A program made the translations under genes and the position numbers. The notes under the pieces were generated by a model, which was not told where the DNA came from, searched no databases, and saw nothing but the letters and a program-made list of their open reading frames with translations. Below, piece by piece: positions 1 to 8,343 of a stretch of DNA of 64,000 nucleotides (its first letter is position 1; the number at the start of each line of letters is the position of its first letter). Origin of the DNA: Streptomyces sp. RPT161 (GTDB lineage: Bacteria > Actinomycetota > Actinomycetes > Streptomycetales > Streptomycetaceae); NCBI RefSeq assembly GCF_027533845.1, contig NZ_JAPZVN010000015.1, positions 1 through 64,000 of the forward strand, in the 5' to 3' direction.

Positions 1-86
1 CTGCCTTTCCGGCCTCTCGGCCCGTCCGGCGTGTTCACTACTTTAGCGGATTTCCCCGCCGGCTCATAATCGAGCCGATCGAATCG

Positions 87-106
87 AATTTCGGCATGCC
101 GAAATT
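87..106. promoter_or_regulatory. 20-bp perfect palindrome, candidate operator upstream of trpS
   Basis: The sequence AATTTCGGCATGCCGAAATT is a perfect 20-bp palindrome. Its last two bases are the first two of a TTGACC hexamer (105-110) that could be a -35 element reading toward trpS. A perfect dyad on a -35 is typical of a dimeric repressor site. No obvious -10 at ideal spacing follows (nearest is TAGTGG at 130-135, 19-nt spacer), so the promoter itself is inferred. It could instead be a terminator of an upstream gene outside the window, but there is no G+C-rich stem. Confidence 0.45.
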
Positions 107-265
107 GACCCTGAAGGGAGGCCGTGCAGTAGTGGTTTGCCGCGGAGCGGCGGAAGTGGCTGCCGTTGGACCTTGTTCGGCCCGCGGCAACTGTTCGACT
201 CTACACCAGGCCCGTATGGCGTACAAGCCGCGCCAGTTGGCTCGCCGCGCGCTACGCTGCCTGCC

Positions 266-307
266 ATGACTTCGCATGCGCTCACCCAGCAGTGGTGGCC
301 CGCCTGA
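266..307 (+). CDS. trpS leader peptide with tandem Trp codons
   Basis: This short frame encodes MTSHALTQQWWPA and stop TGA. The two consecutive TGG codons lie at 293-298, just before the stop, as in amino-acid biosynthetic leader peptides. It sits 115 bases upstream of trpS and immediately before mutually exclusive RNA hairpins. Ribosome-mediated attenuation through a Trp-containing leader peptide is known for the auxiliary, indolmycin-resistant TrpRS of Streptomyces coelicolor, and this arrangement fits that mechanism. The Shine-Dalgarno sequence is weak, so the start is assigned from the Trp codons and context. Confidence 0.8.
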   Translation: MTSHALTQQWWPA

Positions 308-362
308 CGGCGGCCGCCCCTCAGTGCATGCATCCAACGGCCGCCGCCTCGGCGGCCGTTGG
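297..362 (+). promoter_or_regulatory. trp-type transcription attenuator of trpS
   Basis: Three pairings compete. Hairpin 1:2 joins GG-CCGCC (297-304, C299 bulged) to GGCGGCC (309-315) across the loop TGAC. The antiterminator joins CGGCGGCCG (308-316) to CGGCCGCCG (338-346), nine perfect pairs. The terminator joins CCAACGGCCGCC (334-345) to GGCGGCCGTTGG (351-362), twelve perfect pairs with a 5-nt loop. A ribosome stalled on the Trp codons (293-298) would cover segment 1, freeing segment 2 to form the antiterminator; normal translation would let the terminator form. There is no U-tract after the stem, which is common for terminators in this high-G+C group. Confidence 0.75.
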
Positions 363-422
363 CGTATCTGCTCCCGCATCCGGCCGCCGCGGTAGGCGGC
401 CCGTATCCAGGGAGACAGCGAG

Positions 423-1421
423 ATGACGCGAATCTTCAGCGGTATCAAGCCGACCGGCCACCTCACCTTGGGCAACTACCTCGGCGCCGTACGCCGGTGG
501 GTGGAGGTGGACCAGCACCGGGCGGACGCCCTTTTCTGCGTCGTCGACCTGCACGCGCTGACCGTCGACCACGATCCCGGCCGGGTGCGGCGGCTGAGCC
601 GCCAGGCGGCCACCCTGCTGCTGGCGGCCGGGCTGGACCCCGCCCGGTGCACCGTGTTCGTCCAGAGTCACGTCGACGAGCACGCCCGGCTGTCGTACCT
701 GATGGAGTGCACCGCCACCGACGGCGAGATGCGGCGCATGATCCAGTACAAGGAGAAGGCGGCCCGCGAGCAGCAGCGCGGCGGGAGCGTACGGCTGTCG
801 CTGCTGACCTATCCGGCGTTGATGGCGGCGGACATCCTGGCGTACCAGGCGGACGAGGTGCCGGTCGGGGACGACCAGACGCAGCACGTGGAACTGGCCC
901 GGGATCTGGCGGTCCGGTTCAACCAGCGGTACGGGCACGCCTTCACCGTGCCGAGGGCGGTCCGTCCGCAGGTGGCCGCGCGGGTGATGGATCTCCAGGA
1001 TCCGACTTCGAAGATGGGCAAGTCCCATGCCGCGACGGCCGGGATCGTCTATCTGCTGGACGAGCCGGACGTGATCCGCAGGAAGGTGATGCGCGCGGTC
1101 ACGGACAGCGGCAGTGGGGTCGCGTACGAGCCCGACACGCGGCCGGGGGTGGCTAACCTGCTGGACATCCTGGCGGCGTGCACGGGGAGTTCACCGGAGG
1201 AACTGGCCGAGAGCTATGACTCGTACGGCGCGTTGAAGAAGGACACCGCGGAGGCGGTGGTCGAGGTGCTGCGGCCGTTGCGGGAGCGGCATGGCGAACT
1301 GTGCGCCGATCCGGGCCAGGTGGACCGGGTGTTGCGGGAGGGCGCCGAGCGGGCGCGGGCGCTGGCCCGCCCGACCGTTGACGCGGCGTACTCGGCGATC
1401 GGGCTGCTGCCAGCGCTGTAG
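423..1421 (+). CDS. trpS: Tryptophanyl-tRNA synthetase, auxiliary (TrpRS1-type)
   Basis: Charges tRNA-Trp with tryptophan in the cytoplasm; class Ic synthetase. The 332-residue length is normal for bacterial TrpRS. The HIGH-type signature is seen as TGHLTLGN at residues 11-18 and the KMSKS-type loop as SKMGKS at about residues 195-200. A GGAGA ribosome site lies 7 bases before the ATG. The gene is preceded by a Trp-Trp leader peptide and attenuator, and proC follows tail to tail 9 bases away. Streptomyces usually carry two TrpRS genes; the neighbourhood (next to proC and ilvD) and the leader match the inducible copy that resists indolmycin in S. coelicolor. Resistance itself is inferred from this orthology, not visible in the sequence. 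Confidence 0.93.
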   Translation: MTRIFSGIKPTGHLTLGNYLGAVRRWVEVDQHRADALFCVVDLHALTVDHDPGRVRRLSRQAATLLLAAGLDPARCTVFVQSHVDEHARLSYLMECTATDGEMRRMIQYKEKAAREQQRGGSVRLSLLTYPALMAADILAYQADEVPVGDDQTQHVELARDLAVRFNQRYGHAFTVPRAVRPQVAARVMDLQDPTSKMGKSHAATAGIVYLLDEPDVIRRKVMRAVTDSGSGVAYEPDTRPGVANLLDILAACTGSSPEELAESYDSYGALKKDTAEAVVEVLRPLRERHGELCADPGQVDRVLREGAERARALARPTVDAAYSAIGLLPAL

Positions 1422-1430
1422 GCCGGTGAA

Positions 1431-2240
1431 TCAGCCGTTCCCGGAGGCCAGTTCGCGACTGCGGTCGCGGGCGGCCTCCAGGGCGGCGAGCAGCGCGGCC
1501 CGTACGCCGTGGTTCTCCAGTTCGCGGATGGCGCTGATGGTGGTCCCCGCGGGGGAGGTGACGGCCTCGCGGAGCTTGACCGGGTGCTCGCCGCTGTCCC
1601 GGAGCATGACGGCGGCGCCGATGGCGGCCTGGACGATCAGGTCGTGGGCCTGGGCGCGGGGCAGGCCGAGCAGGATGCCCGCGTCGGTCATCGCCTCGAC
1701 CAGGTAGTAGAAGTAGGCGGGGCCGGAGCCGGACAGCGCGGTGGCCGCGTCCTGTTGGGACTCGGGGACCCGCAGCGTCTTGCCGACCGGCTTGAAGATC
1801 TCCTCGGTGCGGATCAGGTGCGCTTCGGTGGCGTGGCTTCCGGCGGAGATGACGGACATGCCCTCGTCCACCAGGACCGGGGTGTTGGGCATGACCCGTA
1901 CCACCGGGGTGCCGTCGGCGAGCCGCTCCTGGAGGAACGCGGTGGTGATGCCCGCGGCGGCGGAGACCACCAGGCGGTCGGCGGGGACGTGCGCGGCGAG
2001 TTCGTCCAGCAGGGCTGCCATGTCCTGCGGCTTGACGGTGAGGATGAGGGTGTCAGCGGCCTTGGCGGCTTCGACGTTGCTGACCGCGTCGACGCCGTAC
2101 CGGGTGCGCAGTTCCGCGGCGCGGTCCGCGCGGCGGGTGGTGACCAGCAGGTCCCCCGGGGCCCAACCGGCTCGGATCATTCCGGAGAGCAGCGCTTCGC
2201 CGATCTTTCCGGTGCCTAGTACGGCGACTTTCTGGGGCAT
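1431..2240 (-). CDS. proC: Pyrroline-5-carboxylate reductase
   Basis: Last step of proline synthesis: reduces 1-pyrroline-5-carboxylate to L-proline with NAD(P)H. The 269-residue length is typical. The N-terminus shows the dinucleotide fold VAVLGTGKIGEALLSGMI (GxGxxG at residues 8-13), and the C-terminal half holds the family signature SGSGPAYFYYLVEAM. An AAAGGTGAAG ribosome site precedes the ATG. It converges on trpS with 9 bases between the stops. The pairing of trpS with proC is conserved in streptomycetes; I infer no functional link. Confidence 0.94.
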   Translation of the reverse strand: MPQKVAVLGTGKIGEALLSGMIRAGWAPGDLLVTTRRADRAAELRTRYGVDAVSNVEAAKAADTLILTVKPQDMAALLDELAAHVPADRLVVSAAAGITTAFLQERLADGTPVVRVMPNTPVLVDEGMSVISAGSHATEAHLIRTEEIFKPVGKTLRVPESQQDAATALSGSGPAYFYYLVEAMTDAGILLGLPRAQAHDLIVQAAIGAAVMLRDSGEHPVKLREAVTSPAGTTISAIRELENHGVRAALLAALEAARDRSRELASGNG

Positions 2241-2319
2241 CGTGCTTCACCTTTCCGCTGCCGTTCTGGCTGGTTGCCGGGCCATCGTCGCATCTCGGGG
2301 TGCGCGTGTGCGGGCCGGT

Positions 2320-2350
2320 GGCGGGTACGCGTGGGTTTTCCCCACCCGCC
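2320..2350. terminator. Weak hairpin downstream of the ABC-2 operon
   Basis: Arms GTGGG (2331-2335) and CCCAC (2341-2345) close a TTTTC loop and are flanked by GGCGG and CCGCC. It lies just past the stop of the ABC permease gene (minus strand). The pairing is interrupted by 6 unpaired bases on one side, so the call is tentative. Confidence 0.35.
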
Positions 2351-2362
2351 CGCTTCGCTGTC

Positions 2363-3100
2363 CTACGGTGTGCGGCGCCGTAGTGTGGCCGAGCCGAGGG
2401 CCAGTACGAGCAGGGCGCTGCCCGCGATGACGGCGAGGTCGCGCAGCAGGTCCGCGTTGGCGGAGGCGTCGAGCGAGACGTGGGTCATGGCGTCGACGAC
2501 GTATGACATGGGCAGGGCGTCGGAGACGTAGGACAGCGCGGTCGGCATGGCGCCGCGCGGTACGAACAGGCCGCACAGCAGCAGTTGCGGGAAGATCACC
2601 GCGGGCATGAACTGGACGGCCTGGAACTCGCTGGCCGCGAAGGCGCTGACGAACAGCCCGAGCGCGGTGCCGAGCAGTGCGTCGAGCACGGCGACGAGCA
2701 GCAGTAGCCAGGTGGGTCCGGCGAGGCTGAGGTGGAGCAGTCCGACGGCGAGGCCGGTGGCGAGGGCGGCCTGGACGATGGCGAGCAGGCCGAAGGCGAG
2801 CGCGTAGCCGAGGATCAGCTCGGCCTTCCGCAGCGGCATCGACAGCAGCCGCTCCAGGGTGCCCGAGGTGCGTTCGCGCAGCGTCGCGATCGAGGTGACC
2901 AGGAACATCACGATCAGTGGGAAGACGCCGAGCAGTGCTGGCCCGATGTGGTCGAAGGTCTGCGGGGTGGCGTGGAAGGCCCAGTAGAGCAGGGTGAGCA
3001 GAACGAGCGGGACGCCCAGCATGAGGGCGATGGTGCGCGGGTCGTGGCCGAGTTGGCGCAGTACCCGGCGGGCGGTGGCGAGGGTGCGCTGGGCGGTCAT
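2363..3100 (-). CDS. ABC-2 type transporter permease
   Basis: Membrane half of an ABC-2 family exporter, 245 residues. It begins MTAQRTLATARRVLRQLGHDPRT, a short cytoplasmic stretch, followed by about six hydrophobic segments (starting near residue 25) and the YSDAL-type C-terminal region usual in drug or lipid efflux permeases. The start ATG overlaps the stop of the upstream ATPase gene by 4 bases (ATGA), so the two are translationally coupled and should form one complex. Substrate unknown; family members export antibiotics or other hydrophobic compounds. The divergent two-component system at 3981-5974 may sense the same stress, which is inference from position only. Confidence 0.85.
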   Translation of the reverse strand: MTAQRTLATARRVLRQLGHDPRTIALMLGVPLVLLTLLYWAFHATPQTFDHIGPALLGVFPLIVMFLVTSIATLRERTSGTLERLLSMPLRKAELILGYALAFGLLAIVQAALATGLAVGLLHLSLAGPTWLLLLVAVLDALLGTALGLFVSAFAASEFQAVQFMPAVIFPQLLLCGLFVPRGAMPTALSYVSDALPMSYVVDAMTHVSLDASANADLLRDLAVIAGSALLVLALGSATLRRRTP

Positions 3101-5980: not shown

Positions 5981-6505
5981 TCAACGGCGCTTGCGCCTGC
6001 CGGAGTTGGCGGAGCGTGCCGCCGGGTTGCCGGTGCGTGTGGAGCGCCGCCGCTCGTACGCCTCACGGGCCCGCTCGTACTCGGTGCGGCGCAGCCGCTC
6101 CCCCGGCGCCTCGCGCAGGCAGCGCACGAAGTAGGCGAACAGCGAGCCGATGAAGCCGATCAGCAGCAGTCCGCGGTTGTCGCCCCTGGACTCGGGGCGG
6201 CGGTTGAAGCCGTCCCAGGTCTGCCGGAAGGCCAGCGCGGTGCAGATGGCGAGGGCCGCGACGAACAGGATCTTGACGAAGGCGCCCACATCGGCGGTGT
6301 CGAAGCCCTGGTAGGCGAAGCGCACCACGAACGCCCCGGCCGCCGCGGCGAGCAGCGAGCCGATCGCAAGACCGGCCCGCCGCCAGCCGTAGCCGCCGTC
6401 GTGGTGCACCCAGGTGGTACCGAAGAACCGGATGGGCTCGGGCTCCGGGCCACCCTCGTCGCTGCTGCGCTGCTGCTCTGCCTCGCTCACACCGGCAATT
6501 GTCAC
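5981..6505 (-). CDS. Conserved membrane protein of unknown function
   Basis: A 174-residue protein. After a charged N-terminus ([19 protein letters not shown]) there are two hydrophobic segments near residues 45-65 and 75-95 and a third near 112-128, then a very basic tail ([23 protein letters not shown]). I do not recognise a named domain. Its GTG start overlaps the ilvD stop as GTGA, so it should be expressed from the ilvD transcript. The in-frame GTG five codons downstream is an alternative start. The basic C-terminus suggests cytosolic contact with nucleic acid or lipid head groups, a weak inference. Confidence 0.75.
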
Positions 6506-8343
6506 CCGAGCTTGCTGACGTCCCGCACCGCACCCTTGTCGGCACTGGTCGCCATGGCCGCGTACGCCTTGAGCGCGGTGGAGACATGGCGGTCGCGGTC
6601 GGCCGGGCGGTACACCCCGCCGAGCGCCGCGCGCCGCTCGGCCAGCTCCGACTCGTCCACCTTCAGCTCGACGGACCGGGCCGGAATGTCGATGCGGATC
6701 AGGTCACCGTCCCTGACCAGCGCGATCGTGCCGCCGGCCGCCGCCTCCGGGGAGACATGGCCGATCGACAGGCCGGAGGTGCCACCGGAGAACCGGCCGT
6801 CGGTGATCAGCGCACACGCCTTGCCCAGGCCGCGGCCCTTGAGGAACGCGGTCGGGTAGAGCATCTCCTGCATGCCCGGCCCGCCCTTGGGCCCCTCGTA
6901 GCGGACGACCACCACGTCGCCCTCCTTGACCCGCTTGTTCAAGATCGCGTCGACCGCCTGCTCCTGGGACTCCACGACCACCGCGGGACCCTCGAAGACC
7001 AGGATCGACTCGTCCACCCCGGCGGTCTTGACCACACAGCCGTCCACGGCGAGGTTGCCGCGCAGCACCGCGAGGCCGCCGTCGGCGGAGTAGGCGTGCG
7101 CCACGTCACGGACGCAGCCGGACTCGGCGTCGGTGTCCAGCGAGTCCCACCGCTCGGACTGGGAGAACGCGGTGGCCGAGCGAACGCAGCCGGGCGCCGC
7201 GTGGAACAGCTCCACGGCCTCGGGGGACGGGGAGCCGCCGCGGACGTCCCACTTCTTCAGCCAGTCGGCGAGGGACGCCGAGTGCACCGCGTGCACGCTC
7301 TCGTCCAGCAGCCCGGCCCGGTGCAGTTCGCCGAGGATCGCCGGGATGCCGCCCGCCCGGTGCACGTCCTCCATGTGGTACGTGCCGTTGGGCGCCACCT
7401 TGCACAGGCACGGCACACCGCGGGAGAGCTGGTCGATGTCGGCCATCGTGAAGTCCAGCTCGGCCTCCTGGGCGGCGGCGAGCAGGTGCAGGATCGTGTT
7501 GGTCGAGCCGCCCATGGCGATGTCCATGGCCATGGCGTTCTCGAACGCGGCGCGGTTGGCGACGGCGCGCGGCAGGATGGTCGCGTCGTCCTGGTCGTAG
7601 TACCGCTTCGTGAGCTCGACGACGGTGCGGCCCGCGTCCTCGTACAGCCTCCTGCGGGCGGTGTGGGTGGCGAGCACCGAGCCGTTGCCGGGCAGCGCCA
7701 GGCCCAGCGCCTCGACCAGGCAGTTCATCGAGTTGGCGGTGAACATGCCGGAACACGAGCCGCAGGTCGGACAGGCGGCCTCCTCGATCCGGGCCAGGTC
7801 CTCGTCGGAGACCGAGTCCGATACGGCGTCGGACATCGCGGAGATCAGGTCGAGACCGGTGCGCACCGTGCCGTCCACCAGAACGGCCTTGCCGGCCTCC
7901 ATGGGGCCGCCGGAGACGAAGACCGTCGGGATGTTCAGGCGCAGCGCGGCCATCAACATGCCCGGAGTGATCTTGTCGCAGTTGGAGATGCAGACCAGGG
8001 CGTCCGCGCGGTGCGCCTCGACCATGTACTCCACGGAGTCGGCGATCAGGTCCCGGGACGGCAGGGAGTAGAGCATTCCGCCGTGTCCCATGGCGATGCC
8101 GTCGTCCACCGCGATCGAGTTGAACTCGCGCGGGATGCCGCCCGCCTGCTTGATGGCGTCGGAGACGATACGGCCCACGGGGGCGAGGTGGGTGTGGCCG
8201 GGCACGAACTCGGTGAAGCTGTTGGCCACCGCGATGATCGGCTTGCCGAAGTCCTCACCGGCTACGCCTGCCGCGCGCAGCAGCGCGCGGGCTCCCGCCA
8301 TGTTGCGGCCGTGGGTGACCGTACGTGACCTCAGCTCGGGCAC
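6502..8343 (-). CDS. ilvD: Dihydroxy-acid dehydratase
   Basis: Dehydrates 2,3-dihydroxy-isovalerate and dihydroxy-methylvalerate to the keto acids that precede valine and isoleucine; also feeds pantothenate through ketoisovalerate. It has 613 residues, a usual length. The iron-sulfur/substrate signatures [13 protein letters not shown] and [19 protein letters not shown] are intact. It ends in a GTGA overlap with the small membrane protein gene, and a TetR gene lies 89 bases upstream on the same strand. Branched-chain genes ilvBN and ilvC are not in the window. Confidence 0.96.

Follow-up and report, generated by a model that had tools for sequence, protein, structure and literature searches.

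A probable tryptophan attenuator with an additional covarying helix in front of an auxiliary trpS gene of Streptomyces

The trp attenuator of Escherichia coli has two adjacent Trp codons, four segments (1–4) and a stop codon next to segment 2. It controls a biosynthetic operon and its 5′ leader carries a ribosome-binding site, whereas the element described here, found in a 64,000-nucleotide stretch of DNA from Streptomyces sp. RPT161 (the window), would control a synthetase. In 2010, Vecchione and Sello reportedly showed that the auxiliary trpS of S. coelicolor is regulated by ribosome-mediated transcriptional attenuation. The title of their 2010 paper, as cited in the accessible part of PMC4787780, names an auxiliary antibiotic-resistant TrpRS gene. 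According to the accessible part of PMC7157823, SCO3334 and SCO4839 are two TrpRS paralogues of S. coelicolor, and SCO3334 belongs to the WblC regulon.

Attenuators of this kind have been described in other members of the genus. In 2005 one of the classical type was predicted in front of trpS2 of S. avermitilis, and the same study predicts attenuators in front of the trp operons of Streptomyces and Corynebacterium, whose leader peptides contain two or three Trp residues and whose core triple is given as gGCC-rGCy-GGCC (PMC1262725, accessible part). These predictions concern other species, and the accessible part of the paper names no helix like the one we call P0 below. In S. lividans TK24 a trpL2-trpS attenuator was annotated from RNA-seq, with a leaderless leader of 13 residues, MMTRTCTQLWRAA, and two hairpins; a uridine-rich stretch was not found (PMC8079986, accessible part).

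The leader in the window resembles S. lividans trpL2 in having 13 residues and in standing before trpS, and leaders near-identical to trpL2 occur at two related loci (L034, ending in TTRTCTQLWRAA, and L050, MMTRTCTQCWWAA). The two differ in the number of Trp codons, which is one in S. lividans trpL2 as given in the accessible text of PMC8079986 and two in the window. They also differ in a Pro codon of the window, which puts a bulge into the 1:2 pairing. P0 goes unmentioned for trpL2-trpS in the same accessible text. An earlier note on this DNA had called the mechanism known for the auxiliary TrpRS of S. coelicolor; what is accessible of PMC1262725 and PMC8079986 bears this out for the genus. 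The attenuator in the window is a further case of a switch already known in Streptomyces. Its trpS is probably orthologous to SCO3334, judging from the leader and from the identity within the genus.

The leader peptide ORF (MTSHALTQQWWPA*) lies on the plus strand at positions 266–307. Direct reading of the sequence finds its 13 codons just where the earlier note had put them, with ATG at 266, TGG TGG at 293–298 and the stop codon TGA at 305–307. To compare it with relatives, a search by TrpRS protein was used, which gave 477 confirmed relatives; the loci of the best 80 and the window make up 81 rows. A leader ending in W(W/R)(A/P)A-stop precedes trpS in 80 of the 81 rows (the window and GTDB loci), where the pattern searched was Trp, then Trp, Arg or Ser, then any codon, Ala and a stop, at most 420 nt upstream. 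The endings are WWAA in 71 rows, WWPA in five and WRAA in four, and the sole miss is a run of Ns. A looser pattern, a mini-ORF ending in W(W/R) within 300 nt, is found at 78 of the 80 loci, and both misses have Ns beside trpS. Because it is kept in front of trpS in so many rows, the leader is not a product of chance. In the 64-kb window just one Trp-Trp mini-ORF, that of the leader, is followed by a hairpin of 10 bp or longer; none of 50 shuffles made with 3-base blocks contains such a combination.

Two sets of elements were derived from these rows. Leaving out L037 and L045 (Ns), L077 (the element is visible and its terminator was missed by the search expression) and L019 (identical to L016) gives 77 elements; removing ten near-duplicates by hand gives a 67-row alignment, A1. 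Every one of the 77 elements has a TAnnnT hexamer before the start codon, at a gap of 7 nt in 61 and of 6 nt in 16, and the hexamer is invariant in all 67 aligned rows. In the window it reads TACGCT (253–258, plus strand), 7 nt before the leader start, and is a probable −10 element of the leader promoter. The spacing is that of a −10 box if transcription begins at the first base of the leader. Hence, the sequence suggests that the leader is leaderless, with the transcript starting at or adjoining ATG 266. A general promoter scan of positions 1–1500 called no promoter, and no −35 consensus was recognised before the leader. The WblC box GAAAWY, which does not define attenuation, is present in none of the 77 elements within 140 nt before the leader start on the same strand.

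The mutually exclusive pairings 1:2, 2:3 and 3:4 are all present, as in trp-type attenuators, by sequence, fold and energies. Segment 1 (294–304, plus strand, as are the others) overlaps the Trp codons; segment 2 occupies 308–318, segment 3 334–346 and segment 4, the 3′ arm of the terminator, 350–362. Two pairings proposed in the earlier note can be read directly as perfect helices: the antiterminator 2:3 (308–316 with 338–346, 9 bp) and the terminator 3:4 (334–345 with 351–362, 12 bp), to which the computed fold adds a 13th pair, 346:350, around a 3-nt loop. The predicted 3′ end lies just after 362. The third pairing, 1:2 (297–304 with 309–315), has seven pairs with C301 bulged out, and it can extend outwards through 294–296:316–318, so that 309–318 of segment 2 pair with segment 1. 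Folding, which had been put forward as a check, was run on positions 260–420 and gave −89.4 kcal/mol versus −71.8 ± 4.2 kcal/mol for 200 shuffles (z −4.2), none of which was as low.

Conservation of these pairings is high. In all 67 aligned rows 1:2 has seven pairs in either of two registers. In 62 of them a GCC (Ala) codon follows Trp-Trp or Trp-Arg, which makes 1:2 an unbulged helix of 7 bp; five rows, that of the window among them, have CCC (Pro) there. In 2:3 no aligned row departs from standard pairing at the inner seven positions, whereas the end pair 316:338 is unpaired in 11 of 67. A further set of 21 elements, made up of 20 family elements found by the covariance model and the window, has A-G at 308:346 in 11 and C-C at 316:338 in 17. 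The eight-pair core of 3:4 consists of standard pairs in every row with letters there, and its outer pairs 334:362 and 335:361 are rarely kept among relatives. Comparison with relatives, another check raised in the earlier note, shows the Trp codons kept (80 of 81 rows). For 1:2, 2:3 and 3:4 covariation is uninformative in close relatives and counts neither for nor against them, because their cores are nearly invariant within the family. The tail after 3:4 has four Ts in nine nucleotides in the window and five to seven in 56 of 67 rows, and a terminator scan called no terminator-like site at 3:4 in the window. Termination near 362 is the least secure step of the model.

The regulated gene is trpS (423–1421, plus strand), encoding a tryptophanyl-tRNA synthetase of 332 aa (TIGR00233, E 5.1e-94; solved TrpRS relatives). 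By its TIGR00233 assignment it belongs to the metabolism of the same amino acid that the leader codons specify. The genome has a second TrpRS gene besides it, and PF00579 is found there in three places; the third place is a 451-aa frame on C52, which we take to be TyrRS by its length. A second TrpRS gene and a leader of the trpL2 type are both present, as for the auxiliary trpS of Streptomyces. The stretch examined upstream of the other TrpRS gene has no Trp-Trp mini-ORF. The covariance model matches its own genome convincingly at one place only, the site in the window (118 bits); the next match, at 28 bits, is the opposite strand of the same site. Own-genome matches below 29 bits at L086 and L088 were inspected and are not leaders. 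A chorismate-binding (trpE-like) locus of this genome has a leader, MLACRTAWWWTADPAAH, that is absent from the matches of the model. Among the best 80 loci the closest relatives are from Streptantibioticus, with 92 and 90% identity, the second having an identical leader peptide; by this comparison the organism probably belongs in or close to Streptantibioticus.

Element and gene go together across the family. Among 40 Streptomycetaceae genomes, our own included, 25 have a strong match to the model (E at most 4.5e-18), and all 25 have a full-length trpS of the window type, which in the 24 other genomes is at least 77% identical to that of the window. Twelve genomes are without a window-type trpS and have no strong match; three of these have weak ones, and at one of the three (L140) the match is a leader that precedes an anthranilate-synthase-like gene. 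The remaining three are ambiguous: two have a partial trpS with an unreadable upstream region, and one has trpS fragments without the element. At L156, trpS fragments sit at the same place beside promoter motifs of the rRNA side, with no leader and no hairpins, as in a decayed copy. A larger draw of 200 family genomes, which overlaps the first, has 77 with a match at E 1e-8, at one place each.

The neighbourhood of trpS is also recurrent. Six of the seven loci with 3 kb upstream were searched, and in five of the six (L013, L016, L055, L057 and L080) trpS lies divergently beside an rRNA operon, with a 16S rRNA gene on the opposite strand; at L010 a tRNA-Asp takes its place. The contig extends less than 3 kb upstream in 73 of the 80 loci and the window itself begins at a contig end, probably because trpS adjoins an rRNA operon. 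Between trpS and the rRNA side we noticed by eye a promoter-like pair on the minus strand, TTGACA-17-TAGTGT; the window version, within positions 1–265, is TTGTAC-17-TAGAGT. On the plus strand, TGTCAA occurs in 61 of 77 elements, in 41 of them at a distance of 47 nt upstream of the leader. The gene after trpS (1431–2240, opposite strand) resembles proC by eye. Further inside, ARAGORN calls a probably spurious tRNA-Ala at 7526–7599 (plus strand), which lies within and opposite a long ORF at 6502–8343 (minus strand; ilvD-like by eye).

Related leaders are found beyond the family. A class-wide scan with the covariance model covered 394 genomes, the 40 of the family among them. Matches with E up to 0.01 came from 91 genomes, and many were weak or partial. 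We read 25 further matches (L116–L140), picked by hand from the better scores, 24 outside Streptomycetaceae and one inside. Each of them comes with a mini-ORF that contains W-W or, in three cases, W-R. The downstream gene is trpS in 16 (by tblastn), trpD in three and anthranilate-synthase-like in five, and there is L128, which agrees with L126 in its leader peptide and in the size of its ORF. Among the five anthranilate-synthase-like genes only that of L126 passes the curated anthranilate-synthase cut-off. The three trpD cases (L116, L117 and L124, from three other actinomycetes) have the gene, for anthranilate phosphoribosyltransferase, directly behind the Trp leader. A distant, third type of TrpRS, 36–39% identical to that of the window, occurs in six Streptomycetaceae genomes (L149–L154). 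All six stretches have a Trp-Trp leader of their own (MTSVPCRNWWRSS and similar) with other core letters, and in the 40 genomes this type is never together with an intact window-type trpS. Two distant auxiliary synthetases share the same kind of switch.

The earlier note had called the attenuator complete. Its three pairings stand, and its completeness does not, because it left out a covarying fourth helix. This helix, P0, joins leader codons 3–6 (274–282, plus strand) to the linker between segments 2 and 3 (323–331, plus strand) and encloses 1:2 in the minimum-energy fold. We know of no P0-like clamp in the Escherichia coli trp attenuator. Neither P0 nor a class-wide family is mentioned in the literature searched, which was mostly non-subscription and was not queried for the helix by name. 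Because that search was limited, P0 may well be in print.

In the 67-row alignment P0 alone among the helices of the element shows strong covariation. Pairing is kept in 98.1% of the cells of its seven-pair core and in 82.7% of those of the two outer pairs; 58 rows have all seven core pairs and the other nine have six. The pair 278:327 is A-U in 43 rows and G-C in 22, 281:324 is U-A in 42 and C-G in 15, and 282:323 is G-C in 31, A-U in 11 and U-A in five. For P0 and 1:2 taken jointly, 59 cells, every one in P0, are changed on both sides, versus 20.8 in shuffles. The joint covariation score of 0.206, versus 0.135, is reached by none of 500 shuffles. By two other measures on the same joint set P0 and 1:2 are not outstanding: five pairs change on both sides versus 3.8 (48 of 500 shuffles as high), and 281 of 500 shuffles do as well in further pair types. 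Sliding the partner by one to three columns lowers pairing from 87.6% to 20–53%. When pair states are mapped by parsimony on a tree of trpS nucleotide sequences, there are 14 changes at 276:329, six at 277:328, three at 278:327, 11 at 281:324 and 21 at 282:323, where every change of a pair is counted, including those to and from G-U and mismatches. In the further set of 21 elements 140 of 147 core cells are paired and 17 of 42 in the outer two pairs, a test that is only partly independent because the model includes P0 and because one element, L177, has the same sequence as part of L006 in the first set.

Outside Streptomycetaceae the picture is less sharp, and group means and a few folds, rather than covariation, suggest that P0 is present there. 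We compared the duplex of each sequence with its own and with shuffled partners, a test that is noisy in GC-rich RNA. At the 5% level own partners win in three of 15 family elements (15 of the 77 were used), one of six of the third type and eight of 26 others; against partners swapped in from the other 46 rows, 11 of 47 are in the best 5%. The group means, own versus shuffled, are −16.3 versus −12.8, −14.9 versus −11.4 and −14.5 versus −11.7 kcal/mol. The duplex test fails outright in some rows, including L129, L136 and the trpE-like leader of our own genome (L146), whose P0 pairing is worse than the shuffled mean. Three of the six leaders of the distant TrpRS type were folded, and in these a P0-like helix encloses 1:2 (z −1.6, −3.5 and −1.8).

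Taken together, we consider it very likely that the element is a ribosome-mediated transcription attenuator that raises transcription of the auxiliary trpS when charged tRNA-Trp is scarce. The earlier idea that the logic of attenuation here governs a synthetase is supported: leader, Trp codons, spacing from the stop codon to segment 2 and pairings are conserved, and the downstream gene is trpS. The analysis provides the anatomy of the element, its conservation, the covariation of P0, computed energies and the linkage to trpS; from these we infer a start site, stalling, termination, the response to charging and the role of P0 as a clamp. Transcription would start at or beside the leader ATG at 266. 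With ample Trp-tRNA, a ribosome would reach the stop codon at 305–307 and cover segment 2, 3:4 would form and transcription would end near 362. With Trp-tRNA scarce, through starvation or a TrpRS inhibitor such as indolmycin, the ribosome would stall at 293–298. Segment 2 would then lie just past its leading edge and could pair with segment 3, allowing read-through into trpS. The footprint of a ribosome is some 15 nt. By the geometry we assume, a ribosome whose A site holds the first Trp codon would reach to about 306, and segment 2, which begins at 308, would be free.

Without a ribosome on the leader, P0 and 1:2 would form one long hairpin, 3:4 would follow and trpS would stay off. The computed energies are −19.1 kcal/mol for 1:2, −18.8 for 2:3, −27.5 for 3:4, −11.7 for P0 and −31.3 for P0 and 1:2 together. 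Hence, the switch should be off by default, and 2:3 should need the help of a stalled ribosome. Leaving P0 aside, 1:2 and 2:3 are about equal; with P0 the terminating fold would be strongly favoured unless a ribosome opens segment 1 and the 5′ arm of P0. In this sense P0 would be a default-off clamp.

One could also argue that the leader acts on translation, instead of or besides transcription: a hairpin 3′ of 362 would hide the ribosome-binding site of trpS, and the leader would switch access to it. The fold of 260–420 does pair a C-rich stretch just past the terminator, CTGCTCCC, with GGGAG-ACAG before trpS (window 369–419), and in 64 of 77 elements the best Shine-Dalgarno-like stretch has at least four of six bases paired, with three of six in the window itself. 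However, when the spacers of 26 of the 77 elements were shuffled 20 times each, 371 of 520 shuffles reached the same level, so the excess is small, and a GC hairpin of 12–13 bp right behind the leader suits termination better. We regard translational control as improbable. Nor do we claim a cascade, with segment 4 releasing the ribosome-binding site of trpS from a hairpin, since the count in the real elements is little above that in the shuffles.

A still smaller chance goes to a constitutive terminator, or insulator, behind a promoter region shared with the divergent rRNA operon, the mini-ORF being incidental. The divergent 16S rRNA gene upstream of five of six relatives searched would fit such an arrangement. 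An incidental frame, however, would not be expected to keep its Trp codons and the place of its stop in as many as 80 of 81 rows, nor letters in codons 3–6 that change together with their P0 partner, and related Trp leaders precede trpD and anthranilate-synthase-like genes as well. We therefore think an insulator very unlikely. T-boxes control most synthetase genes of Firmicutes (PMC1262725, accessible part), which brings up a T-box or another RNA that binds a ligand or a tRNA. Such an RNA we give almost no credence, since the 5′ region carries a conserved mini-ORF with Trp codons and positions 1–3000 of the window have no match up to E 1 to any Rfam family (T-box, Trp leader and others). In seven related loci Rfam gives one tRNA and two sub-threshold matches, one of them an sRNA family (25.8 bits, threshold 79) that overlaps the L118 element on one strand.

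Ribosome-mediated attenuation of trpS leaves room for a broader reading, which we offer tentatively and hold to be rather less probable than not: P0 may be shared by actinomycete Trp attenuators as a timer, with the N-terminus of the leader as a by-product of pairing. P0 would then be common to the leaders before two distant kinds of TrpRS, before trpD and before anthranilate-synthase-like genes, and would join the first codons of a leaderless leader to the linker between segments 2 and 3. A timing role comes to mind because a leaderless leader has no ribosome-binding site. A ribosome would have to load before the 3′ arm of P0 exits the polymerase, or else the transcript would lock in the terminating fold. 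The N-terminal residues of the leader could vary freely as long as the helix is kept.

The attenuator itself is in line with what is known of these soil bacteria, which respond to failed charging of tRNA with Trp by switching on a spare synthetase. What our analysis adds is a covarying helix outside the usual 1-2-3-4 scheme, with exact coordinates, and a covariance model by which Trp leaders can be recognised in other actinomycetes. No family in the Rfam copy searched matches the element in the window. If it is true that P0 times the loading of ribosomes on leaderless leaders, this would help to explain how attenuation can work without a ribosome-binding site.
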